Translations under genes and position numbers: made by a program
Assembly (NCBI GenBank): GCA_018812925.1
Contig: JAHJCU010000003.1
Coordinates: 62,001-126,000 of the forward strand
Origin: Candidatus Omnitrophota bacterium
GTDB lineage: Bacteria; CAIJMQ01
DNA length: 64,000 nt
Direction of reading: 5' to 3'
In this document: in pieces, positions 2,184 to 64,000 of the stretch
How the letters are laid out: every line of letters begins with the position of its first letter
How positions within the stretch are numbered: position 1 is the first letter of the stretch
The notes under the pieces: model-generated
Seen by the model: the letters and a program-made list of their open reading frames with translations, nothing else
What the model was told of the DNA's origin: nothing
Database searches by the model: none

Positions 2184-3249
2184 CCCGCCTGCTTGCTTCG
2201 CATTGAAGCGGGCAGGGGTCTGTATTTATAAAGTGGTTATATCCTTTCGGAATTATCTCCTGATTGTTTGAAAAAATTTTCGGTTTACCCTCTCGCCCAT
2301 CAGGATTTGGCGGGCAGGTTATAATTTCCCCGACTATGGTCAAAATAGTCCCATTTACTCTGGAAGGTAATCTTTTTGCTTCTTTTTTAGATAAAGTGAA
2401 CAAAAGTTCATAATCTTCTCCTCCGTATAAAGCAAAATCTAAGACCTTATCTTTGGCGAAATCTTTTAGAGCGGAAGAAACAGGTATTTTTGATATATCT
2501 ATAGATGCCGATACTTTACTTTCCTCAAGAATATGAAATAAGTCTTGAGTAAAGCCGTCTGATATATCTATCATTGAATTTAGTTTTACTTTGGATATAA
2601 TTTTTCTTATCTCGTTGAGCCGGGGAATAGGTCTTAAATGTCTTTTGCAAAGTACCGGATTTTTTCCGGATTTTTTTAGAATTTCCATTCCTGCTTTAGA
2701 ATCACCCAAAGTGCCGGTAACGACGATTAAATCCCCGATTTTGGCGCCAGAACGTTTTACAAACTTGTCTTTCTTTACTTCTCCAATCATTGCTATATCA
2801 ATAACTGTTGAAGAAACGCCTCGTGCAATATTTCCTCCTACTAATGATAAAGGATATTCTTTTATGAATTCTTTAAAGCCGTTGTATAGTTCATCTACCC
2901 ATTTTTCGTTGATTTTTTCATTTAAGACAAGTGATATAGTTGCATATTTAGGTGTTCCTCCCATCGCCGCAATATCGCTTGCGTTTATAGCCAATGCTTT
3001 CCAGCCCAAGTTTTGCGGTTTGGCATAATCTAATGAAAAATGAACGTTTTCAACTAAACAATCGCAGGTAAATAAGAGATATTTATTCCCGGACACTTTT
3101 AAAACGGCTGTATCATCGCCGGGACCTACTATTACCTTACCTTGTTTCCTGCCCGCTATCTTATGAGCGGGTTCCCTTATTGCCTGTCTAATTCTATTGA
3201 TTAAAGCAAACTCGTTTTTTATCATCTGAACTTCTATTGATTTAAGCAT
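2173..3249 (-). CDS. thiL: thiamine-monophosphate kinase
   Basis: 358 residues. ThiL phosphorylates thiamine monophosphate to the diphosphate cofactor. Motifs seen: GPGDDTAVL near residue 42, DCLVENVHFS, the glycine-rich SLVGGNIARG, and DISDGFTQDL, which together are ATP/Mg and substrate-binding signatures of the PurM/ThiL fold. Start is the ATG at 3249, divergent from the adenosine-kinase-like gene. Odd: two GC-rich palindromes lie inside the reading frame. One encodes the segment CPPNPDGREGK just after VGEI. The other, with the heptamer repeat, supplies about the last 16 residues after the normal family terminus GYNHF. The inserts are near the C-terminus and probably tolerated. Confidence 0.92.
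   Translation of the reverse strand: MLKSIEVQMIKNEFALINRIRQAIREPAHKIAGRKQGKVIVGPGDDTAVLKVSGNKYLLFTCDCLVENVHFSLDYAKPQNLGWKALAINASDIAAMGGTPKYATISLVLNEKINEKWVDELYNGFKEFIKEYPLSLVGGNIARGVSSTVIDIAMIGEVKKDKFVKRSGAKIGDLIVVTGTLGDSKAGMEILKKSGKNPVLCKRHLRPIPRLNEIRKIISKVKLNSMIDISDGFTQDLFHILEESKVSASIDISKIPVSSALKDFAKDKVLDFALYGGEDYELLFTLSKKEAKRLPSRVNGTILTIVGEIITCPPNPDGREGKPKIFSNNQEIIPKGYNHFINTDPCPLQCEASRRDRL
2184..2218. repeat. GC-rich palindrome (family P), end of thiL
   Basis: Imperfect inverted repeat with arms CCTGCTTGCTTC (2188-2199) and GAAGCGGGCAGG (2205-2216). Related palindromes built on CCTGCC/GGCAGG arms occur at about 2287-2320, 5316-5344, 13689-13727, 36086-36112, 40126-40155, 50784-50812 and 63326-63352. 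Here it encodes the extreme C-terminus of ThiL. Confidence 0.7.
2287..2320. repeat. GC-rich palindrome (family P) inside thiL
   Basis: Imperfect palindrome running from CTCGCCCATC to GGCGGGCAGG within the thiL reading frame. It encodes CPPNPDGREG on the minus strand and does not disturb the frame. It lies where ThiL proteins normally have a short loop after the V/IGEI strand, which suggests insertion rather than ancestral coding sequence. Confidence 0.6.
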
Positions 3250-5177: not shown

Positions 5178-5356
5178 CCCCGTTAGAGATAAAGAGAATA
5201 TGTTTGGTTATTTCTTAGGGGTAGTGAAAAAGTATTATTTGCTATACGACCTTTACCGTGTTGCGGTCGCCATAGATACCCTCGGCTTCGCCGAGAGGCG
5301 AGCAATGGCGACCTACCTGCGCCCGCTAAGATTTGGCAGGCGGGTCTCTAACGGGG
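5178..5356. repeat. nested palindromic element (family R outer arms) in the PAP2 leader
   Basis: Outer arms are CCCCGTTAGAGAT (5178-5190) and GTCTCTAACGGGG (5344-5356). Inside is a second inverted pair, GGTCGCCAT (5265-5273) and ATGGCGACC (5305-5313). That pair encloses a third hairpin, CTCGG-CTTCG-CCGAG (5281-5295). A family P palindrome follows at 5316-5344. The same outer arms enclose a different interior at 47384-47448. The arrangement looks like elements inserted into elements. A short open frame across it (5071-5379) is not considered a gene. Confidence 0.75.
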
Positions 5357-13688: not shown

Positions 13689-13727
13689 CCGCCTGCTTGC
13701 TCCGATGTTACGTCGGAGCGGACAGGT
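13689..13727. repeat. GC-rich palindrome (family P)
   Basis: Inverted repeat CCTGCTTGCTCCGA (13692-13705) with TCGGAGCGGACAGG (13713-13726), between nrdD and the redoxin gene. It lacks a following T-run, so it is not an obvious terminator; it belongs to the dispersed palindrome family. Confidence 0.65.
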
Positions 13728-36063: not shown

Positions 36064-36134
36064 ATTCTTGATTACACAGATTTCTACCACCTGCTTGCTT
36101 CGCAGCAGGTGGTGATTACAGGGATTACAAGAAT
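36064..36134. repeat. nested palindrome downstream of the transporter gene
   Basis: Inner stem ACCACCTGC (36086-36094) / GCAGGTGGT (36104-36112) is a family P-like core. Outer imperfect arms ATTCTTGATTACACAG and GATTACAAGAAT extend it to 36134. There is no T-run, so terminator function is possible but not specifically indicated. Confidence 0.6.
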
Positions 36135-39448: not shown

Positions 39449-40651
39449 ACGTTGGATACAGTGCAGGTGGCATATTTTGATTGTTTCTCTGGAATTAGCG
39501 GGGATATGATACTTGGGGCTTTGATTGATTTGGGTGTAAGCCCTAAATATTTGGAAAAAGAATTGAACAAGATGACTCTTCCTGCTTTCAAACTTGTTGT
39601 TAAGAATGTAAAAAAACAGGGTATCGGCGGGGTAGGGTTGGAAGTTGTTACTAAGGATAAGAAGGAAAGAACCTTAAAAGATATTTTAACGATAATTGAT
39701 AAGAGCAGTTTAGATAAAGATATTAAGGGAACTGCTAAGAAAATATTTGCACGATTAAATGATGCTGAAAGCCGAGTCCACCGCGAACATAAAGAGCGTA
39801 TGCATTTTCACGAGCTCGGAATGCTGGATACTATTGTTGATGTAGTCGGCGTTTTGGTTGGAATAAAAAAATTAGGCATTGAACAAATCTATAGCTCGCC
39901 TCTACATTTGGGAACGGGTTTTGTAAAATGTGTTCACGGAATTTTGCCTGTACCATCACCTGCTACTGCGGAACTGTTAAAAGGGATTCCTGTTTACAAT
40001 AAAAATATAGAAGCGGAATTGGTTACTCCAACAGGGGCGGTGTTAATTACTTCATTGGCGCAAAAGTTTGGCGATATGCCAAAAATGGAAGTAGAAAAAA
40101 TAGGTTATGGCGCGGGACATAAAGACCTGCCCGCTTCGCAGCAGGCGGGCCTGCCTATACCCAATCTTTTAAGGGTTATGGTAGGTGATATGGCAAAAGA
40201 TTATGAGCAGGATACTGTTTCTCTTATCCAGACCAATATTGATGATATGAATCCGCAAATCTGCGGTTATCTTATGGATAAGTTATTGGAACAGAGCGCG
40301 CTTGATGTATGGTTTACACCGATTCAGATGAAGAAGAATAGGCCTGCCGTTTGTTTAAGCGTATTGGCGGAAAAGAACGATGTGGATAGTTTGTGTGAGG
40401 TTATTTTTAGCCAGTCCACTTCTATCGGCGTGAGAATTTCCGAGGTAAATAGAAAGAAGTTGGCAAGGGAAACAAAAACGATAAAAACAAAATACGGTAA
40501 AGTAGTTCTCAAAATAGGAAGAGTAGGTAAGATAGTTAAAAACATCTCTCCAAGTTATGACGATTGCAGTAAACTCGCCGATAAACTCAACATTCCTCTA
40601 AAAGACGTATTGGAAGAAGCAAAGAAGGAAGCTCGTCGATTAATCAAATAA
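39356..40651 (+). CDS. larC: nickel-pincer cofactor nickel insertion protein LarC
   Basis: 431 residues if started at the ATG 39356, but the first about 35 residues (PRTTEPRRVRG, RPVLRRVQG) are translated family Q palindromes. The conserved start VAYFDCFSGISGDMILGALIDLG follows a GTG at 39461, a plausible true start. Later: HFHELGMLDTIVDVVGV (metal-ligand region), TPTGAVLITSLA, and the C-terminal domain NIDDMNPQICGYLMDKL. A family P palindrome inside the frame encodes ASQQAGLP between DLP and IPN. The gene is a single uninterrupted frame with no programmed frameshift evident, and it works with larB and larE. Confidence 0.9.
   Translation: MNKNTKLNKPRTTEPRRVRGTVRPVLRRVQGTLDTVQVAYFDCFSGISGDMILGALIDLGVSPKYLEKELNKMTLPAFKLVVKNVKKQGIGGVGLEVVTKDKKERTLKDILTIIDKSSLDKDIKGTAKKIFARLNDAESRVHREHKERMHFHELGMLDTIVDVVGVLVGIKKLGIEQIYSSPLHLGTGFVKCVHGILPVPSPATAELLKGIPVYNKNIEAELVTPTGAVLITSLAQKFGDMPKMEVEKIGYGAGHKDLPASQQAGLPIPNLLRVMVGDMAKDYEQDTVSLIQTNIDDMNPQICGYLMDKLLEQSALDVWFTPIQMKKNRPAVCLSVLAEKNDVDSLCEVIFSQSTSIGVRISEVNRKKLARETKTIKTKYGKVVLKIGRVGKIVKNISPSYDDCSKLADKLNIPLKDVLEEAKKEARRLIK
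40126..40155. repeat. GC-rich palindrome (family P) inside larC
   Basis: CCTGCCCGC (40126-40134) paired with GCAGGCGGG-type bases (40141-40149), then CCTGCC again. It encodes LPASQQAGLP within LarC, in a region where the family normally continues directly from the GxGxGxKD-like segment to PN(L)LR. Confidence 0.7.
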
Positions 40652-50441: not shown

Positions 50442-52124
50442 ATGAACAAAATATATTTTCCCCAATACAAAAAAGAAAAGGAAGGACTGGCTTTTAAAAA
50501 AGGTCTTTCTATTTTAGATTATCTTAAAGAATCCGGCATAGAAATCAATGCCGAGTGCGGCGGTAATGGTAAATGCGGCAAGTGTAGAGTAAGAATAGAA
50601 AAAGGGAAAGAGAACTTAAACGAATTAACCAAGTCAGAACAATCCTTTTCATTAGCTTTCAACGAAAGATTAGCTTGTCAGGCAGTAGTGGCAAAGAATA
50701 AAGAAGATATAGTTGTCTTTATAAAAGAATCCGGCAAGTATGAAATCCTGACAGAAAGTCTTGCCCCGAACCGAACTTGTTCTCCCGCCTGCCAATCTTT
50801 TGCGGGCAGGGGTTTGGGGTTAAAATTAAATCCCTCCACTATACTAAAAGATAATAGGGTAGTATGCGATGGTGAAACGCTTGATGATTATAAAGGCAAA
50901 ATTTACGGGCTTGCAGTAGATGTTGGAACAACAACTTTAGTATTTGAGATAGTCAATCTCCAGACCCCGATAAAATCAACGGGGCAGGCAGGTGAAATCG
51001 TCAAAACCATAGCAAAAACAAATCCGCAAATTGCCTATGGCGGAGATGTCATATCAAGAATTGAATACGCAATAGTAGGGGAGAGGAAACTCGTATATCG
51101 TACAGTTCAAGAAATAGAAATAAAAATAAAAGAATTACAAAAATGTGTAATTGACAGAATAAATGAATCTTTAAAAGAATTAGATATCATGCCATATATT
51201 TACGAGGCGGTAATAGTCGGCAATTCTACAATGAGAAATATCTTCTTTGGACTTGATATATTTTCTCTGGGCTTAAGACCTTATGAACCTGTCCATAAAG
51301 AACCGATTGTAAGAACTGCAGAAGAACTGGGGCTTAATATATTCCCAAAGGCAAAAGTATACGGCGCCTCTTTAATTGGCGGACACGCAGGAGCAGATGC
51401 TTTGGCGGATATTATTGCTTCGGGAATTTATAAGAACGCCAAACCCAGTATGCTCATTGATATTGGCACAAACGGCGAAGTAATACTCGGAAATTCAAAA
51501 CGATTAATCAGCGCGACTCTTGCCGCAGGTGGCGCATATGAAGGAGCAAACGTAAGCTCGGGAACAGGCGCTATTGAAGGGGCAATAAAGAATATAAAAA
51601 TTGAAAATGGCAAAGCCATCTATGAAACGATAGGGGATAAAGAACCAATTGGAATATGCGGTTCAGGACTTATTGATTTATTGGCCGAACTTTTAAGATG
51701 CGGAATTATGGACAAGAGCGCAAAAATAAAAGAGGATTTTAAAGTAACCGATAAGATTAAACTAACCCAATCGGATATCTATCAACTCGTTAATGCGAAA
51801 GCAAGTTTAAAAACAGACCAAATTATTCTCTTAAAACATTACGGCATAGATGTTAAAGATTTGGATAAGATTTATCTTTCAGGCGGATTTGGCAATTATA
51901 TAAATGTTAAAAACGCCATAAAGATTGGTCTATTACCCGATGCGGAAGACAAAATAGTTAAGATAGGCAATGGCGCTTTAGCAGGCGCGAGAGAAATGCT
52001 TTTTTCCAAGGAAGCCAGGAAAACTTCAGAGGAAATAGCCAAGAAGATTGAGCATACTAAACCGAACGAACTGGAAAAAGATTTTAATAATTTAGTAGCG
52101 GATAATATGTACTTCGAGGATTGA
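50442..52124 (+). CDS. RACo/ASKHA-type reductive activator with 2Fe-2S domain (DUF4445)
   Basis: 560 residues. N-terminal plant-type 2Fe-2S domain (ECGGNGKCGKCRVRI with LACQ, about residues 35-85) and a C-terminal ASKHA fold: AVDVGTTTLVFEIV, DIGTNGEVILG, GSGLIDLLAEL, YLSGGFGNYI. This layout is that of activators of corrinoid Fe-S proteins and methyltransferases (RACo-like), which re-reduce Co(II). A family P palindrome (50784-50812) lies in the linker and encodes SPACQSFAGRG in frame. No corrinoid protein is adjacent in the window. Confidence 0.87.
   Translation: MNKIYFPQYKKEKEGLAFKKGLSILDYLKESGIEINAECGGNGKCGKCRVRIEKGKENLNELTKSEQSFSLAFNERLACQAVVAKNKEDIVVFIKESGKYEILTESLAPNRTCSPACQSFAGRGLGLKLNPSTILKDNRVVCDGETLDDYKGKIYGLAVDVGTTTLVFEIVNLQTPIKSTGQAGEIVKTIAKTNPQIAYGGDVISRIEYAIVGERKLVYRTVQEIEIKIKELQKCVIDRINESLKELDIMPYIYEAVIVGNSTMRNIFFGLDIFSLGLRPYEPVHKEPIVRTAEELGLNIFPKAKVYGASLIGGHAGADALADIIASGIYKNAKPSMLIDIGTNGEVILGNSKRLISATLAAGGAYEGANVSSGTGAIEGAIKNIKIENGKAIYETIGDKEPIGICGSGLIDLLAELLRCGIMDKSAKIKEDFKVTDKIKLTQSDIYQLVNAKASLKTDQIILLKHYGIDVKDLDKIYLSGGFGNYINVKNAIKIGLLPDAEDKIVKIGNGALAGAREMLFSKEARKTSEEIAKKIEHTKPNELEKDFNNLVADNMYFED
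50784..50812. repeat. GC-rich palindrome (family P) inside the RACo-like gene
   Basis: CCCGCCTGCC (50784-50793) with TGCGGGCAGG (50801-50810), loop AATCTTT. Flanking CCCCGAACC (about 50764) and GGGG (about 50816) may extend it. It encodes part of the linker between the 2Fe-2S and ASKHA domains without interrupting the frame. Confidence 0.65.
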
Positions 52125-52147: not shown

Positions 52148-52170
52148 CCCGCACCCTACGTGGTGCGGGG
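52148..52170. repeat. family Q palindrome after the RACo-like gene
   Basis: CCCGCAC-CCTACGTG-GTGCGGG, in the opposite orientation to the ACGTAG palindromes at the larC start. It begins 24 bases past the RACo-like stop and could also act as a weak terminator. Confidence 0.65.
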
Positions 52171-58513: not shown

Positions 58514-59125
58514 ATGGAAAGTCAAAACTCAAAAGTAAAAAGACAAAAATTAGAAGAAATAATTACCTCGGCACAGCAAATTCATCATGGAAAATTGAAT
58601 ATCAATCCAAAGAAAACTAAAGAGAAGAGATTATTCCTTGACCTTGATATTTGCTCGGCAGGCGAGTGCAAAGAGTGCGTCATTCAGTGTAGTTATTTAT
58701 ATCATCAACAGAAACCTGGAAATAACGGTATTGTTTCGGTAGCCGAACTTGCAACATATGCGCTTGTTTGCAGAAAGTGTGAAGAACCGCATTGTGTCAA
58801 TGCCTGTCCTTTTGAAGCTCTTGAACAACAAAAAGATAAGAATAAATTATTGATAAGACATAATATGAGATGTGTCAGTTGTAAATCATGTTCTCATGCC
58901 TGTCCTTACGGAACAATATATCCGGAGAATGTTCCGTTTTTAATTCATAACTGTGATTTTTGTCTTGACAGGAGAGAACAAAAAAATGAGCCGCTGTGCA
59001 TCAAGAGTTGCCCTTACGGAGCATTGTCTCTTAAAGAAAGCGATGTAGAACTTGACGAAAATACTTTTTTAGTTGGAGATAATTTAATAGTCCATTCCAC
59101 ACATTGGAATAGAGAAAAAGCATGA
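58514..59125 (+). CDS. ferredoxin-like Fe-S subunit of hydrogenase (HycB/CooF-like)
   Basis: 203 residues from the ATG at 58514 (58502 is an alternative that overlaps hydG). Four cysteine clusters: CSAGECKECVIQC, CRKCEEPHCVNACP, CVSCKSCSHACP and CDFCLDR...CIKSCPYG. Polyferredoxin-type subunits with this pattern link a soluble electron donor to the membrane-bound hydrogenase. It overlaps the next gene by 4 bases. Confidence 0.85.
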   Translation: MESQNSKVKRQKLEEIITSAQQIHHGKLNINPKKTKEKRLFLDLDICSAGECKECVIQCSYLYHQQKPGNNGIVSVAELATYALVCRKCEEPHCVNACPFEALEQQKDKNKLLIRHNMRCVSCKSCSHACPYGTIYPENVPFLIHNCDFCLDRREQKNEPLCIKSCPYGALSLKESDVELDENTFLVGDNLIVHSTHWNREKA

Positions 59126-60054
59126 TATATCTATTAGACCCTTTAATCTATCTTTTAATATATGGTTTTTTACTGACGGCTATAATGGGTTTGATAGCCA
59201 GTTGGATAGATAGAAAAGTTACTGCAAGAGTCCAATATAGAGTAGGTCCGCCGCTATTACAACCGTTAATAGATATTATAAAGTTATTAGGCAAAGAAAC
59301 TCTTATCCCGGAGGGCGCTTCAAAGATCACTTTTTTAATGGCTCCCATTATTGGTTTCTCCGGTGTTGTTTTAGTGTCAACTATATTATGGATAAATAAC
59401 ATTGATCCGACAAAAAGTTTCATGGGGGATTTAATAGTGGTCTTGTATCTTTTAGTTGTTCCCTCTATAAGCATTATTATGGGCGGATTTGCATCAAGAA
59501 ATCCTCTTGCAAGTTTAGGCGCTTCAAGAGAAATGAAACTTATTATGGGTTACGAATTGCCCTTTATTCTTGCGGTATTGGTTCCTGTAATACACACACA
59601 TTCTATTAGGTTGGGAAATATTGTAAGTTATCAAGCTACTAACGGTATATTTATAGGTAGTTTATCCGGTTTTCTTGCTTGGATAGTAGTAATTCTTTGT
59701 GTGCAGGCCAAACTGGCTCTTGTTCCTTTTGATATGCCTGAAGCAGAAACGGAAATAGTAGGCGGTCCATTAATAGAATATTCAGGTAGTGGTTTGGCTG
59801 TGTATCGGCTTATGAAAAATATGATGCTTTTTACATTACCTTTTTTCGTAATGATTCTCTTCATGGGTGGATGGAAGTTTGAAGGAATATATTCTTTAAC
59901 CGGACTCCTTAAATATATTGGTGTAGTTGCAATTATTACTGTGATAAGAAATACAAATCCGCGTGTCAGAATTGATCAGGCGGTAAAATTTTTCTGGGGA
60001 CCGATGACTATAATTGCTATAATAGCGGTCATATTGGCCTTTTTGGGTAAATAA
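59122..60054 (+). CDS. membrane subunit NuoH/HyfC-like
   Basis: 310 residues, about 8 membrane helices. IASWIDRKVTARVQYRVGPPLLQPLIDIIKLLGKETLIPE is the hallmark N-terminal NuoH/EchB motif, with FASRNPLASLGASREMKLIMGYELPF and VPFDMPEAETEIVGGP, the acidic loop contacting the hydrogenase peripheral arm. It anchors the catalytic module and couples it to ion translocation. Confidence 0.93.
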   Translation: MIYLLDPLIYLLIYGFLLTAIMGLIASWIDRKVTARVQYRVGPPLLQPLIDIIKLLGKETLIPEGASKITFLMAPIIGFSGVVLVSTILWINNIDPTKSFMGDLIVVLYLLVVPSISIIMGGFASRNPLASLGASREMKLIMGYELPFILAVLVPVIHTHSIRLGNIVSYQATNGIFIGSLSGFLAWIVVILCVQAKLALVPFDMPEAETEIVGGPLIEYSGSGLAVYRLMKNMMLFTLPFFVMILFMGGWKFEGIYSLTGLLKYIGVVAIITVIRNTNPRVRIDQAVKFFWGPMTIIAIIAVILAFLGK

Positions 60055-60056
60055 AG

Positions 60057-60482
60057 ATGAGCGTAAAATTAAAAGCGTTATTAAAATCTCCGTGGGTATT
60101 TCATCTTTCTACGGGTAGTTGTAACAACTGTGATATAGAGATATTGGATTGTCTTACCCCCAGATTTGATATTGAAAGATTCGGTATGCTTTTAGCTTCA
60201 AGTATCAGGCACGCTGACGTCCTTTTGGTTACTGGTTCAGGCAACCGAAAATCCATGGAAATAGTCAAGAGACTCTATGAACAGATGCCGAAACCGGGAC
60301 TTGTTGTTGCAATAGGGGAATGTGCCATGTCGCGCGGTATGTTTATTCATAGTTATAACTGTCCTGTTCCGATAGATAAGATAATACCGGTGGACGTATA
60401 TATACCCGGATGTCCTCCCAAACCGGAAGCGATAATCGCCGGCGTGGTTAAGTTAATAGAGAAGTTAAATAAGAGAAAATAG
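60057..60482 (+). CDS. [NiFe] hydrogenase small subunit (NuoB/HycG/EchC-like)
   Basis: 141 residues. STGSCNNCDIEILDC (CxxC plus Cys), VVAIGECAMSRGMF, and YIPGCPPKPEAI provide the four ligands of the proximal [4Fe-4S] cluster seen in group 4 hydrogenases. No medial/distal clusters, so it is the short membrane-bound type. Confidence 0.93.
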   Translation: MSVKLKALLKSPWVFHLSTGSCNNCDIEILDCLTPRFDIERFGMLLASSIRHADVLLVTGSGNRKSMEIVKRLYEQMPKPGLVVAIGECAMSRGMFIHSYNCPVPIDKIIPVDVYIPGCPPKPEAIIAGVVKLIEKLNKRK

Positions 60483-60484
60483 AT

Positions 60485-60505
60485 TAGTAAATAGTATATG
60501 GTAAA
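60485..60505. repeat. three-unit heptamer array in the hydrogenase operon
   Basis: TAGTAAA, TAGTATA, TGGTAAA fill the only sizeable gap (49 bases) of the operon. Units resemble the GTAAAT arrays at 37.0 and 42.1 kb. Confidence 0.5.
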
Positions 60506-60531
60506 AAAACGAAATACAAAAGACTAAAAAG

Positions 60532-61008
60532 ATGAAAAGAGAAGAAATTATTAAAGGTATAAAAAATAAATTCAAAAACGATATTATTGAAGTTTTTGAT
60601 AAATCTCCTGCAAGGGTTTATATAGAAATCAAACCCGAGTCTATCGTAGAAATTGCACAATATGTATTCAAGGATTTAGGAGCAAGGTTCAACATAGCAT
60701 CCGGAGTAGATTTAAGAAATCATATGGAGATTTTATATCATTTTCTTATTGAGGACATTAATTTATTGATTTCATTAAGAGTCAAACTTGATAAATCAAA
60801 ATTAGAAATAGATTCACTTGCTAATATAATTGAAGCAACGAATTGGATTGAAAGAGAGATGTGGGAACTTCTGGGTATAACATTCAAAGGTCATCCTGAT
60901 ATGAGAAAACTTCTTCTTTCTGATGATTGGCCCAAAGGAGTATATCCATTAAGAGCAGATTACAAAGAATGGGACAAAAAGGCAATTAGAGATAGAGGTG
61001 TGAAATAA
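60532..61008 (+). CDS. NuoC-like hydrogenase subunit
   Basis: 158 residues, the 30-kDa (NuoC) type: EAT NWIEREMWELLGITFKGHPDMRKLLLSDDWPKGVYPLRADYKEWDKK is the diagnostic C-terminal segment, read here with EATNWIEREMWELLG and HPDMRKLLL. In group 4 hydrogenases this is either separate or fused to the large subunit; here separate. It has no redox centre. Confidence 0.88.
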   Translation: MKREEIIKGIKNKFKNDIIEVFDKSPARVYIEIKPESIVEIAQYVFKDLGARFNIASGVDLRNHMEILYHFLIEDINLLISLRVKLDKSKLEIDSLANIIEATNWIEREMWELLGITFKGHPDMRKLLLSDDWPKGVYPLRADYKEWDKKAIRDRGVK

Positions 61009-61010
61009 AA

Positions 61011-62204
61011 ATGGCAAAGACAATAATTCCGATTGGTCCGTATCATCCTCTTCAGGAAGAGCCGGAGTTTTTTACTCTGACTGTTGAAGGTGAGAGGGTT
61101 GTAGCAATAGATGTAAATGTTGGTTATAACCATCGAGGGATAGAGAAACTTTCCGAAAGTAAGACCTTTGACCAATCTACTTTTCTTGTGGAAAGGATAT
61201 GCGGAATATGTTCTACAAGCCATCCTTTTGCTTTTACGAGGGCTGTAGAAGATATCATACCCGTTGAAGTTCCGGAAAGAGCTAAGTTCATAAGGACAAT
61301 AATTGCAGAAGGTGAAAGAATTCATTCGCATCTTTTGTGGTTAGGTCTTGCAGGACATTTTTTGGGATATAACACCGTTTTTATGTGGGCGTGGAAATTA
61401 AGAGAAGAAATTTTGGACGTGATGGAAATTCTATCCGGTAACAGAAACAACTATGCTATGTTCAAACCGGGTGGAGTAAGACGCGATATAAAATCCGTAG
61501 ACATACCACCTGTCATAAAGAAAATAGATTCTATTATCCCAACACTTGAAATGCTTAAAAAAGCTGTAATAGACGACCCTGTCCTACATGCAAGAACAAA
61601 AGGGATAGGCGTTCTTTCCAAAGAAGATGCAATAAATTTTGGCGCTCTTGGTCCCACATCCAGGGCATCGGGTGTAGCCCGCGATGTAAGAAAGGATTCT
61701 CCTTATGGTGCTTACGATAAAGTGCAGTGGGACATGATAGTTACACAGAATGGTGATGTCTTTGATAAAGCGGTTATAAGAATCCTGGAAACTTTTGAAT
61801 CTATAAAAATAATTAAATATTGTCTTTTGAATCTTCCTGATACGGAAATTGATTTGAATTTAAAAGATATTCCTCCGGGTGAGGGTATTGGACATATCGA
61901 AGCTCCCCGTGGTGAAACATTTCATTATGTAAGAAGCGATGGAACCAATAGACCCGTGCGCCATAAAGTCAGAGCTCCTACATTTATGAATCTTCCTACG
62001 TATAAAGCAACTATTATAGGTGAAACCATATCAGACGCGACCATAATTTTGGCGGCGATTGACCCGTGTTATTGTTGCACAGAAAGAGTAGCTGTGCGCA
62101 ACTTAAAGGGTAATCAGATTTATGATGGACAAGACTTAGTTAAGCTGTCACAACAGAAGACAGAAAAAATAAGAGAAAAAAATGGGTGTTTAAAATGGAT
62201 TTAA
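61011..62204 (+). CDS. [NiFe] hydrogenase large subunit, group 4 (NuoD/HycE/EchE-like)
   Basis: 397 residues. Both Ni-binding CxxC motifs are present: ERICGICSTSHPFAF near residue 65 and DPCYCCTERVAVRN near residue 350, so this is a true [NiFe] enzyme and not the Ni-free NuoD of complex I. IPIGPYHPLQEEPEFF and GVNYNHRGIEK-like NVGYNHRGIEKLSE are also typical. The C-terminal tail past the second motif is about 40 residues; proteolytic maturation cannot be judged. It evolves or consumes H2. Confidence 0.93.
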   Translation: MAKTIIPIGPYHPLQEEPEFFTLTVEGERVVAIDVNVGYNHRGIEKLSESKTFDQSTFLVERICGICSTSHPFAFTRAVEDIIPVEVPERAKFIRTIIAEGERIHSHLLWLGLAGHFLGYNTVFMWAWKLREEILDVMEILSGNRNNYAMFKPGGVRRDIKSVDIPPVIKKIDSIIPTLEMLKKAVIDDPVLHARTKGIGVLSKEDAINFGALGPTSRASGVARDVRKDSPYGAYDKVQWDMIVTQNGDVFDKAVIRILETFESIKIIKYCLLNLPDTEIDLNLKDIPPGEGIGHIEAPRGETFHYVRSDGTNRPVRHKVRAPTFMNLPTYKATIIGETISDATIILAAIDPCYCCTERVAVRNLKGNQIYDGQDLVKLSQQKTEKIREKNGCLKWI

Positions 62205-63922
62205 TAAATTTAGAACTTTTTAAAATTGACAGTCTCTCTACTTTTGTAGGGGTATTTGTCGGTCTGTTTACATTACTCACCGTTATCTATTCTTTTGGGT
62301 TCATGGACAAAAAGAAAGGATTATTTTCTTACTATTTTTATATTATCCTAACTCTTGTAGCTTCTCTAGGAGTTGTTTTCTCAAATGATCTTGTTTTGTT
62401 TATGGTATTCTGGGGTTTTTTGGGAATTCTTTTATATCTTTTGATAGGTGTTGGAGAAAAACCGAATACATCTAAAACATCCAAAAAAGCATTAATAATA
62501 GTAGGTGGAGCAGACGCTCTTATGTTGTTGGGATTAGCTTTAATATGGCATTTGACAGGGACATTTAAGATGGATGGCATGCGAATCCCTTTAAATAGCG
62601 CCGAAGCTATTTGGGCATATCTTCTGCTCGCAATAGGTGCATTTGCTAAAGCAGGCGTTATGCCTTTTCATAGTTGGGTGCCGGATACTGCCGAGGACGC
62701 ACTTACGCCTGTTACGGCATATTTGCCGGCGTCACTTGATAAACTTCTGGGTATATATTTCTTAGTACGGCTCACCCTGAATATGTTTGTTATGAACTTG
62801 GATATGAACACATTTTTAATGGCAGTAGGTAGTTTCACAATTATCGCAGCGGTAATGATGGCGCTTATTCAGAATGATTTTAAGAGACTTTTAGGTTATC
62901 TTGCAGTAAGCTCTGCAGGTTATATGGTCTTAGGTTTAGGAACTGGGAATTTTATTGGTATTGCCGGGGGACTTTTTTACATGTTAAATGGTGCTATTTG
63001 TATGAGTTGTCTCTTTATGACCTGTGGTAGTGTAGAAAAAAATGTCAGGACAATGGATTTGGATAAACTCGGTGGCTTTGCTAAAATTATGCCCATAACA
63101 TTTATCACTTTTGTGATAGCTTCTCTCGCCATTTCAGGAGTTCCTCCTTTTAACGGATTTGCATCAAAATGGATGATATATCAGGGAATAATCAATGTAG
63201 GTAAAAATGGCGGTTCTTTATGGATGCTATGGCTTGTCGCCACTATGTTTGGCAGTGCTCTTACTCTTGCAAGTTTTATGAAATTAATACATGCTGTCTT
63301 CCTTGGTCAACCATCACCCGAAAACCCTGCCCGCAAAGATTTGGCAGGCGGGCGAATACCGAAATCCCCATTGATTTCTCCGAAATCAAGCCATGGGGAC
63401 AGGGCCGAACACCGAGAAGTTAATCCTGTTATGTGGGTTCCGACTGTTATACTGGCTGTTCTCTGTGTTGTATTTGGCGTTTTTGCATATCAAGTACCGC
63501 TTAAAATGTTTATACTGCCGAGTTTAAAAATGGCTGTAAACTTTTCCGGTACATGGAATGCGACTTTGGCGACTTTATTAATGTTGGTGTCAATTGCTAT
63601 CGGCATTATAATTTATTTCTTAGGCACTATAACAAAAACAAGAGAAACCGAAAGTTTCGTAGGCGGAGAAGTTTTGAAGGAGCATCCCGATATGAGAGTT
63701 TCGGGAGTGGAACTTTATAATACGGTTCAAGATATAAAAAGTTTGAAAACGATTTATAATATGGCTAAAAATAAAGCCTTTGACTTATATGAGGTGGTCA
63801 GTAAAATAGTTTTCGGAATAAATAAAATACTGCGTTATATGCATAACGGAATTTTACCTACTTATTTGGCTTGGTGTCTTTTAGGTATGGGAATTCTTTT
63901 TTATGTTTTAATATTGAGGTAA
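62195..63922 (+). CDS. NuoL/MrpA/HyfB-like antiporter subunit with an inserted palindrome
   Basis: 575 residues from the ATG at 62195, overlapping the previous gene by 10 bases. About 14 membrane helices; AGVMPFHSWVPDTAEDALTPVTAYLPASLDKLLG carries the conserved antiporter region, with KRLLGYLAVSSAGYMVLGLG and AISGVPPFNGFASKW. A palindromic insert at 63326-63398 encodes about 25-35 extra hydrophilic residues (PARKDLAGGRIPKSPLI and more) in the loop after FLGQP, in frame. It is the ion-pumping subunit. Confidence 0.9.
   Translation: MDLINLELFKIDSLSTFVGVFVGLFTLLTVIYSFGFMDKKKGLFSYYFYIILTLVASLGVVFSNDLVLFMVFWGFLGILLYLLIGVGEKPNTSKTSKKALIIVGGADALMLLGLALIWHLTGTFKMDGMRIPLNSAEAIWAYLLLAIGAFAKAGVMPFHSWVPDTAEDALTPVTAYLPASLDKLLGIYFLVRLTLNMFVMNLDMNTFLMAVGSFTIIAAVMMALIQNDFKRLLGYLAVSSAGYMVLGLGTGNFIGIAGGLFYMLNGAICMSCLFMTCGSVEKNVRTMDLDKLGGFAKIMPITFITFVIASLAISGVPPFNGFASKWMIYQGIINVGKNGGSLWMLWLVATMFGSALTLASFMKLIHAVFLGQPSPENPARKDLAGGRIPKSPLISPKSSHGDRAEHREVNPVMWVPTVILAVLCVVFGVFAYQVPLKMFILPSLKMAVNFSGTWNATLATLLMLVSIAIGIIIYFLGTITKTRETESFVGGEVLKEHPDMRVSGVELYNTVQDIKSLKTIYNMAKNKAFDLYEVVSKIVFGINKILRYMHNGILPTYLAWCLLGMGILFYVLILR
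63326..63398. repeat. two adjacent palindromes inside the NuoL-like gene
   Basis: Family P copy: CCTGCCCGC (63326-63334), AAAGATT loop, TGGCAGGCGGG (to 63352). A second dyad follows: CCCCATTGATTTC (63366-63378), TCC, GAAATCAAGCCATGGGG (to 63398). Both are inside the coding frame in a hydrophilic loop. 5316-5344 shares the AAGATTTGGCAGGCGGG part. Confidence 0.7.
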
Positions 63923-63924
63923 TT

Positions 63925-64000
63925 ATGGTTGAACTTTATATACTTTTGATATTTATGATTGTCGGTGCAATCATAGCAATAGAAGTGAAGGATTTACTTT
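63925..64000 (+). CDS. small membrane subunit, MbhD/MrpB-like (5' end only)
   Basis: 25 codons before the window edge: MVELYILLIFMIVGAIIAIE, then VKDLL. This matches the start of the short DUF4040/MbhD-like hydrophobic subunits that accompany group 4 hydrogenases of the Mbh/Mrp type. It starts 2 bases after the NuoL-like stop, so the operon continues to the right. Confidence 0.6.
   Translation, partial: MVELYILLIFMIVGAIIAIEVKDLL

Follow-up and report, generated by a model that had tools for sequence, protein, structure and literature searches.

A short untagged palindromic element, nested in a NuoL/HyfB-like gene and dispersed within and between genes of its host genome

Palindromes that stand in frame in genes have so far been seen mainly as a peculiarity of Rickettsia and Wolbachia, alongside the REPs that certain other bacteria carry in genes. 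The Rickettsia palindromic elements (RPEs) and their Wolbachia counterparts comprise several families, and at a given loop orthologues may have an insert in common or carry different ones (PMC10969869, PMC3767692); in R. conorii, the RPEs terminate in a CGTC tag (PMC3733652). GTAG- and CGTC-tagged REPs are hairpins of 20-40 bp, many of which are intergenic and a minority of which lie in frame within genes, often DNA-repair genes (uvr genes, recB, DNA ligase), and the CGTC type is reported without a dedicated transposase (PMC3733652). In TnpAREP subclass 2.4, REPs occur in frame within the tnpAREP genes, and subclass 2.6 has atypical hairpins without GT[AG]G (PMC6006769). Coding MITEs, found in Coxiella and as the RU elements of enterobacteria, are small and non-autonomous and can add peptides to proteins (PMC5896051, PMC2759123). 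Terminal inverted repeats and target duplications are typical of MITEs.

Here, we analyse a palindromic insert in a window of 64,000 nt, by which we mean the whole stretch of DNA under study (G000:C10:62001-126000). Genome G000 comprises 1.47 Mb in 14 contigs and is 92% complete; the relatives compared are its congeners G001 and G002, the family member G003 and three class members, G004-G006, and the genus of G000-G002 is Candidatus Ratteibacteria. Our results support a model whereby part of the insert, here termed element A, is mobile, non-autonomous and very small: most probably a REP-like hairpin of 27 bp, with variants of 24, 30 and 33, that inserts as a discrete unit without target duplication. 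Its dispersal, its exact empty sites, its in-frame copies in genes and its nesting are read directly from the sequences; how it moves is inferred.

Element A nested in element B

The host gene is an uninterrupted ORF of 578 aa that matches PF00361, and its product is homologous to 6cfw_H and other antiporter subunits of complex I and MBH. The surrounding region (window 59122-64000) is a cluster of hydrogenase/complex I-like subunits. The features of the gene and its insert are the following.

62186..63922, + strand: NuoL/HyfB-like antiporter-type subunit gene, host of the nested insert
63319..63325, + strand: left end of element B, CGAAAAC, separated from the remainder by A (alignment with the hypF copy)
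63326..63352, + strand: element A, 27-nt imperfect hairpin CCTGCCCGC(8)GGCAGGCGGG, translated frame PARKDLAGG
63353..63415, + strand: right part of element B, with the hairpin CCCCAT..ATGGGG at about 63366-63398; copies in hypF, C11 and G001

Custom scans took over after a repeat search at default settings on 300 bp had returned no inverted repeat. BLAST of 63300-63430 against its own genome gave 23 matches, in which query positions 27-53 (element A) recur many times and positions 54-116 are element B. An identical 27-mer lies at G000:C14:110247-110273. Copies of B are present in hypF, 16 kb downstream (G000:C10:141363-141425; 95%, E = 7.6e-23), at C11:61644-61709 of the same genome (80%) and in G001 (86%). 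Removal of A restores B: in the alignment of B copies, the NuoL copy, CGAAAAC-CGAATACCGAAATCCCC, matches the hypF copy, CGAAAAC-CGAACCCCGAAATCCCC. The insert in the NuoL-like gene is element A nested inside element B. The translation of B in hypF is PNPEIPIDFSEIKPWGQGRKP, and the NuoL-like gene uses a different frame.

In the protein, the loop from FLG to PVMW has 39 residues, compared with 12-17 in 26 of 29 homologues from other genomes and 19, 25 (L017) and 35 (L043) in the remaining three. Class relatives that are 42-43% identical have a loop of 12-13 residues, and the net gain from the insert is about 24-27 residues. Neither G003 nor the two congeners, G001 and G002, gave a match to the gene itself. 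The original prediction, made from sequence alone, placed palindromes at 63326-63352 and 63366-63398 and held that they leave the frame unbroken; both are present at these coordinates and the ORF is intact. Its description of the two as consecutive is corrected by the nesting, and its estimate of 25-35 added residues held only in part, at the low end. It also named two outcomes that would refute it, namely homologues from unrelated lineages sharing the insert at the same place and an absence of copies elsewhere in the genome. Neither was obtained: NuoL/HyfB homologues lack the insert at that site when aligned, and copies are abundant. A scan of the 1.47 Mb of G000 for the loose pattern CCTGCC..GGCAGG returned 23 instances, compared with 0 for a backwards-read control, the GC content of the window being 0.36. 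Further copies within the window, in thiL, larC and the RACo-like gene, had been claimed as well, and this held: ThiL has three GC-rich palindromes, LarC a 24-nt and RACo a 27-nt element.

50784..50810, - strand: element A in the RACo-like gene (50442-52124), translated frame PACQSFAGR, nested in a second palindrome
40126..40149, + strand: 24-nt A-like element CCTGCCCGCTTCGCAGCAGGCGGG in larC; 8 added residues, missing from 4 of 4 aligned homologues
3148..3171, - strand: A-like palindrome near the thiL N-terminus; insert common to G001, missing from 5 of 5 other aligned homologues
2295..2318, - strand: degenerate A-like element in the C-terminal part of thiL; 9 added residues common to G001, missing from 5 of 5 others aligned
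2188..2216, - strand: GC-rich palindrome forming the C-terminal tail of thiL in G000 (sequence scan and homologue alignment)
5316..5344, + strand: degenerate 29-nt copy of A outside conserved genes (covariance-model match)

The third thiL insert is missing from all 6 aligned relatives, except for a short different tail in one homologue. GC-rich hairpins of types other than A and B, mostly intergenic, were also seen in the window at 13692-13726, 36086-36113 and 52148-52169.

The element family, its empty sites and its reading frames

A covariance model of A built from 24 copies found matches in 6 of the 7 genomes searched (at E <= 1, 54 in G000, 45 in G001, 15 in G002, 2 in G003, 11 in G004, 12 in G005 and 0 in G006), counts that include weak and both-strand matches. 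The census used below is restricted to 68 strong copies with E < 0.08 (28 in G000, 30 in G001 and 10 in G002); it leaves out three E < 0.08 matches in G004/G005 and all weaker ones, among them the ribD copy of G000 (E = 0.32), both-strand repeats and many matches of 23-25 nt. Some computations rest on 67 copies, without a 35-nt intergenic copy of G002, and the flank analysis on 66, another copy lying near a contig end. Copy length is 27 nt in 53 cases, 33 in eight, 30 in two, 26 in two and 29, 35 and 51 (nested) in one each, so that 64 of 68 are multiples of three.

The 43 distinct 27-mers form an imperfect 13-bp hairpin whose outer pairs are almost always standard. Positions 3 and 25 form a T.G wobble in 40 of them and positions 7 and 21 a C/A mismatch in 41, and these conserved irregularities give the hairpin a polarity. 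No stop codon occurs in any of the six frames in 40 of the 53 copies of 27 nt, compared with 28% of shuffled copies. In the flanks (n = 66), A is found at -3 in 47 and at +2 in 39, A or C at -1 in 51 and G at +1 in 29; some flanks are not mutually independent, and this weak target preference may be compatible with a sequence-guided enzyme.

Comparison with relatives shows that A inserts, to the base, as a discrete unit of 27 or 33 nt, in both directions between G000 and G001. Copies present in G000 face empty sites in G001 and G002 at rseC and in G001, G002 and G003 at uvrC, while the 33-nt insertion in the hflK-like gene faces an ungapped empty alignment in G001 and a nearly ungapped one in G002; conversely, pdxA carries A in G001 and is empty in G000. 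No target-site duplication was detected at these four loci or at two phage portal sites described below. Within sets of homologues, A is missing from 3 of 3 for ligA, 3 of 3 for the addA-like gene, 6 of 6 for the hflK-like gene, 5 of 5 for uvrC and 2 of 2 for rseC, and the hypF and larC inserts are missing from all aligned relatives (4 and 4). Three cases are less tidy: in G001, lnt has at the same place a 27-nt stretch with an A-like beginning that is no copy of A, the RACo gene has another palindrome at the A site, and in fumB an A-like insert occupies a second site. Inherited insertions are represented by folK and ribD, where inserts common to G000 and G001 have acquired substitutions and kept the frame, and by two of the three thiL inserts, which are common to the same two genomes with the frame kept. 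The original claim, a palindromic element both mobile and translatable, is supported in that copies are dispersed over the genome and two congeners with exact empty sites.

Gene-internal copies number 24 of 68, and all 24 are in frame. With gene symbols being our interpretation of Pfam matches, the hosts are the NuoL-like gene, RACo, hypF, ligA, lnt, a fumB-like gene, rseC, an addA-like helicase, an hflK-like gene, uvrC, folK and a pseudopilin-like ORF in G000 (12 of 28); murE, carB, recJ, pdxA, ribD, folK, V-type ATPase subunit C and an ORF without Pfam match in G001 (8 of 30); and an rpsA-like gene, a URO-D-like gene, lnt (at another site) and a Y1_Tnp ORF in G002 (4 of 10). Seventeen copies are oriented along the gene and seven opposite to it, and all six frames of A are in use. 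Compared with random placement, gene-internal copies are depleted (24 of 67, while about 90% of the window is coding). The four copies with lengths of 26, 26, 29 and 35 nt all lie outside conserved genes, and an exact test on three of these was not significant (p = 0.55). Of 14 intergenic copies prepared for a split-gene check, 11 were scanned on both sides (L143, L127 and L112 are outside this set), and no split gene was seen around them: between same-strand ORFs, different Pfam families flank A in 10 of 11 (for example ArgJ and an amino-acid kinase, FtsA and FtsZ, and two fumarase subunits), and in the remaining one, L153, one side has no Pfam match. The other copies outside genes were classed from ORF layout alone.

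We considered and rejected the argument that in-frame placement proves selection, as a length divisible by three is also found in 40 of the 44 copies outside genes. Because the length is a multiple of three and the element is mostly open in six frames, the 24 of 24 is weak evidence of selection; it is close to the prediction from the element's own properties, and in-frame landing is largely intrinsic to A. That the copies are translated and tolerated by their host proteins is inferred, without direct evidence of translation.

Movement, spread and rival explanations

A lies in intergenic DNA, in genes and in other palindromes, including B and A itself. We suggest that most of its landings in genes lengthen a loop or linker by about nine residues without disrupting the protein; such landings would be mostly harmless because the length is a multiple of three and a stop is rare in any frame. 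Several copies illustrate nesting. In hypF, A sits inside a 24-nt A-type element (24 + 27 = 51 nt), and larC has the 24-nt form alone; A also lies inside other palindromes in folK, the addA-like gene and RACo. At locus L131 of G001, A lies inside A, and the outer halves make one 27-mer once the inner copy is ignored. A strong stem (score >= 20) arises when the flanks of A are joined in 5 of 66 copies, compared with 0.4% of control positions. Hairpin-loop targeting as a general rule was nevertheless rejected: nesting is enriched, yet most copies of A are not nested in this way. The fumB gene of G002 carries an unrelated palindrome, CCCCCACACC..GGTGTGGGGG, exactly where G000 has A. Among side observations, another palindrome-like repeat, GATTACAC...GTGTAATC, repeatedly hosts A mid-way (L135, L153, L124 and L428), and an intergenic palindrome, TGAACCCCGC...GCGGGGTAATCG (L115, L119 and L159), has A in its loop in G000, while L159 of G002 matches the joined flanks of this palindrome without A.

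In our model, A would move as a folded single strand, on which an HUH-type (TnpA-REP-like) or other single-strand-processing enzyme would act in trans; both steps are inferred, and the enzyme has not been identified. The HUH/IS200-type traits seen in A are insertion without target duplication and an imperfect polar hairpin, and for a third trait, a fixed tetra- or pentanucleotide target, the flanks show only the weak preference described above. A GC-skew strand test gave a positive skew on the element strand for 40 of 67 copies (signed-rank p = 0.008) but is confounded with gene direction, so that strand bias lends possible, and at best weak, support to single-strand movement. Y1_Tnp (PF01797) had no match in G000, which is 92% complete, so this absence is not final; there are 4 matches in G001, 2 in G002 and 2 in G005, and 13 of the 19 other genomes that were tested have members of the family. 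At the loci examined in other genomes, no Y1_Tnp/RAYT gene is flanked by A. Two such genes were noted in passing. In L226 (G002:C5:4200-9500), a Y1_Tnp ORF of 446 aa (1586-2923) with a membrane-helix-like segment carries A in frame in its C-terminal part, A itself lying within another palindrome. In L224 (G001:C39:4500-9000), a 242-aa Y1_Tnp gene is REPtron-like, with similar hairpins near both ends (1755-1787 and 2468-2504, core TCCCACCTCCGAGGTGGGA) that are not A.

A is not confined to the window's lineage. A strict pattern found it in 28 stretches of named genomes, from Chloroflexi/Dehalococcoidia, Zixibacteria, KSB1, WOR-3, Cloacimonadota, Saprospiraceae, one Ratteibacteria and one Simiduia, most of which continue with CGGG outside the pattern. 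A search of 386 genomes recovered the full form in 12, mostly as one copy in unrelated genomes, compared with 0 in 386 for the control. The matches in the KSB1 record span a GC content of 0.33-0.51, and this bin may be mixed. Viral contigs carry A as well, in frame within SPP1-type portal genes (PF05133), where it occupies two sites in opposite orientations. Among 89 distinct portal relatives, full A is present in 4 at site 38 (apparently also in a fifth cut by the contig end) and in 3 at site 169, and it is missing by exactly 27 nt in 11 of 11 neighbours compared at site 38, one of which has another palindrome close by, and in 8 of 8 compared at site 169. As a separate observation, the viral portal genes (L275-L406) have different in-frame palindromes at sites 36, 71, 169, 170 and 175, one type being CATTGCGAG...AGCAATC. 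A portal structure prediction (alignment A2, 41 of the 89 relatives) was set aside, its mean pLDDT being 39.4. Spread across phyla is likely but not proven, and the alternative is that a hairpin which one type of enzyme favours arose repeatedly. It is tempting to speculate further that A is one cross-phylum micro-mobile element of 27 bp, strand-polar and frame-neutral. On this view, it would pass horizontally among bacterial phyla and their phages, enter its targets as one folded strand through a mechanism not yet described, and seed new peptides into essential genes, evolution or filtering having made it harmless whatever its frame and orientation; we lean slightly against this bolder reading.

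Other explanations were weighed against a mobile, translated element. The most serious is that A belongs to an ordinary GTAG-type REP system moved by a RAYT, which remains possible: Y1_Tnp genes are present in the relatives and other genomes listed above, one RAYT-like gene of G001 has matching hairpins at both ends, and the Y1_Tnp ORF of G002 contains A in frame, as do the genes of TnpAREP subclass 2.4 with REPs (PMC6006769). Against it, no GTAG/CTAC tag lies near A, no A-flanked RAYT locus was found among those examined, and G000 lacks a Y1_Tnp match. It is unlikely that the insert is present in the gene and not in the protein, through ribosome hopping or RNA excision. Hairpins in coding sequence are the shape of bypass elements in some mitochondria, but no gene copy of A has a frame-breaking length or a stop, all 24 being in frame, and the inherited copies in folK, ribD and thiL are substituted yet have kept their frame.

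We regard the remaining alternatives as very unlikely. Palindromes might be made locally by template switching during replication and be immobile, and many unrelated palindromes do occupy the same loops (fumB of G002 and the five portal sites with varied palindromes); however, A and B each recur with the same sequence at unrelated loci and have empty sites in relatives, and a local inversion is unable to spread a fixed 27-mer to dozens of places. Template switching is contradicted for A and B, and it remains possible for singletons such as the fumB palindrome of G002. The NuoL insert might instead be an old functional loop of the subunit family, whose loop length is variable, as in L043 and L017; against this, the inserted DNA consists of two dispersed elements also present in hypF, ligA and intergenic DNA, and the class relatives have the short loop. 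Finally, the compared genomes are metagenome-assembled or likely so, and the KSB1 bin is possibly mixed, which could point to an assembly or binning artefact, but the folK, ribD and thiL insertions are common to independent assemblies, exact-length insertions lie within intact ORFs at many loci, and the 27-mer is present in named genomes of separate projects.

Comparison with known palindromic elements

A mobile element dispersed in and between genes remains the reading that we prefer, and several consequences follow for its interpretation. The congeners of the host lineage provide a natural before/after comparison for A, which makes two questions testable, namely by what means REP-sized hairpins move and how short peptides come to be added to proteins. 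Moreover, odd enzyme loops in these genomes can be recent DNA insertions and not adaptations. We found no prior description of A in the open-access literature searched, which largely leaves out subscription journals. The present case combines a shorter element, base-exact empty sites, self-nesting and copies in phage structural genes.

Similarly to RPEs and their Wolbachia counterparts, A forms palindromes in and between genes, in frame. The comparison with RPEs made in the original prediction is thus supported in behaviour, while length and tag differ: RPEs have about 100-150 bp, whereas 53 of 67 copies of A have 27 nt and 8 of 67 have 33 nt, and A, in a different lineage, lacks the CGTC tag of the R. 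conorii elements. The further claim that A is unrelated in sequence to RPEs is neither confirmed nor contradicted, as our comparison covered length and tag only. With the tagged REPs, A shares a hairpin size within 20-40 bp, many intergenic copies, a smaller share in frame within genes, and repair-type hosts (uvrC, ligA, the addA/recB-type helicase and recJ). Within 8 nt of A, GTAG/CTAC was found at 0 of 67 copies, CGTC at 1 of 67 and GACG at 1 of 67, so that A lacks the unpaired tetranucleotide at a hairpin foot that defines the GTAG and the CGTC types. Because it fails on RPE length and on both tags, we do not file A under RPEs or tagged REPs. Base-exact empty sites and phage-gene copies are known for A and are not in the relevant sections of PMC3733652 for the tagged REPs. 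Given that CGTC REPs are likewise reported without a dedicated transposase, the missing enzyme is not unusual.

Like the hairpins of the REP/RAYT systems (TnpAREP subclasses 2.4 and 2.6), A is imperfect, with mismatches, and like those of subclass 2.6 it does without GT[AG]G; unlike them, it is not seen beside a Y1_Tnp gene at the loci examined, and the 92%-complete G000 gave no match to a cognate Y1_Tnp. From classical MITEs, A differs in being a single hairpin without target-site duplication. Altogether, A is likely to be a variant akin to the RPEs and the gene-internal REPs, shorter than the former and without the tags of the latter.
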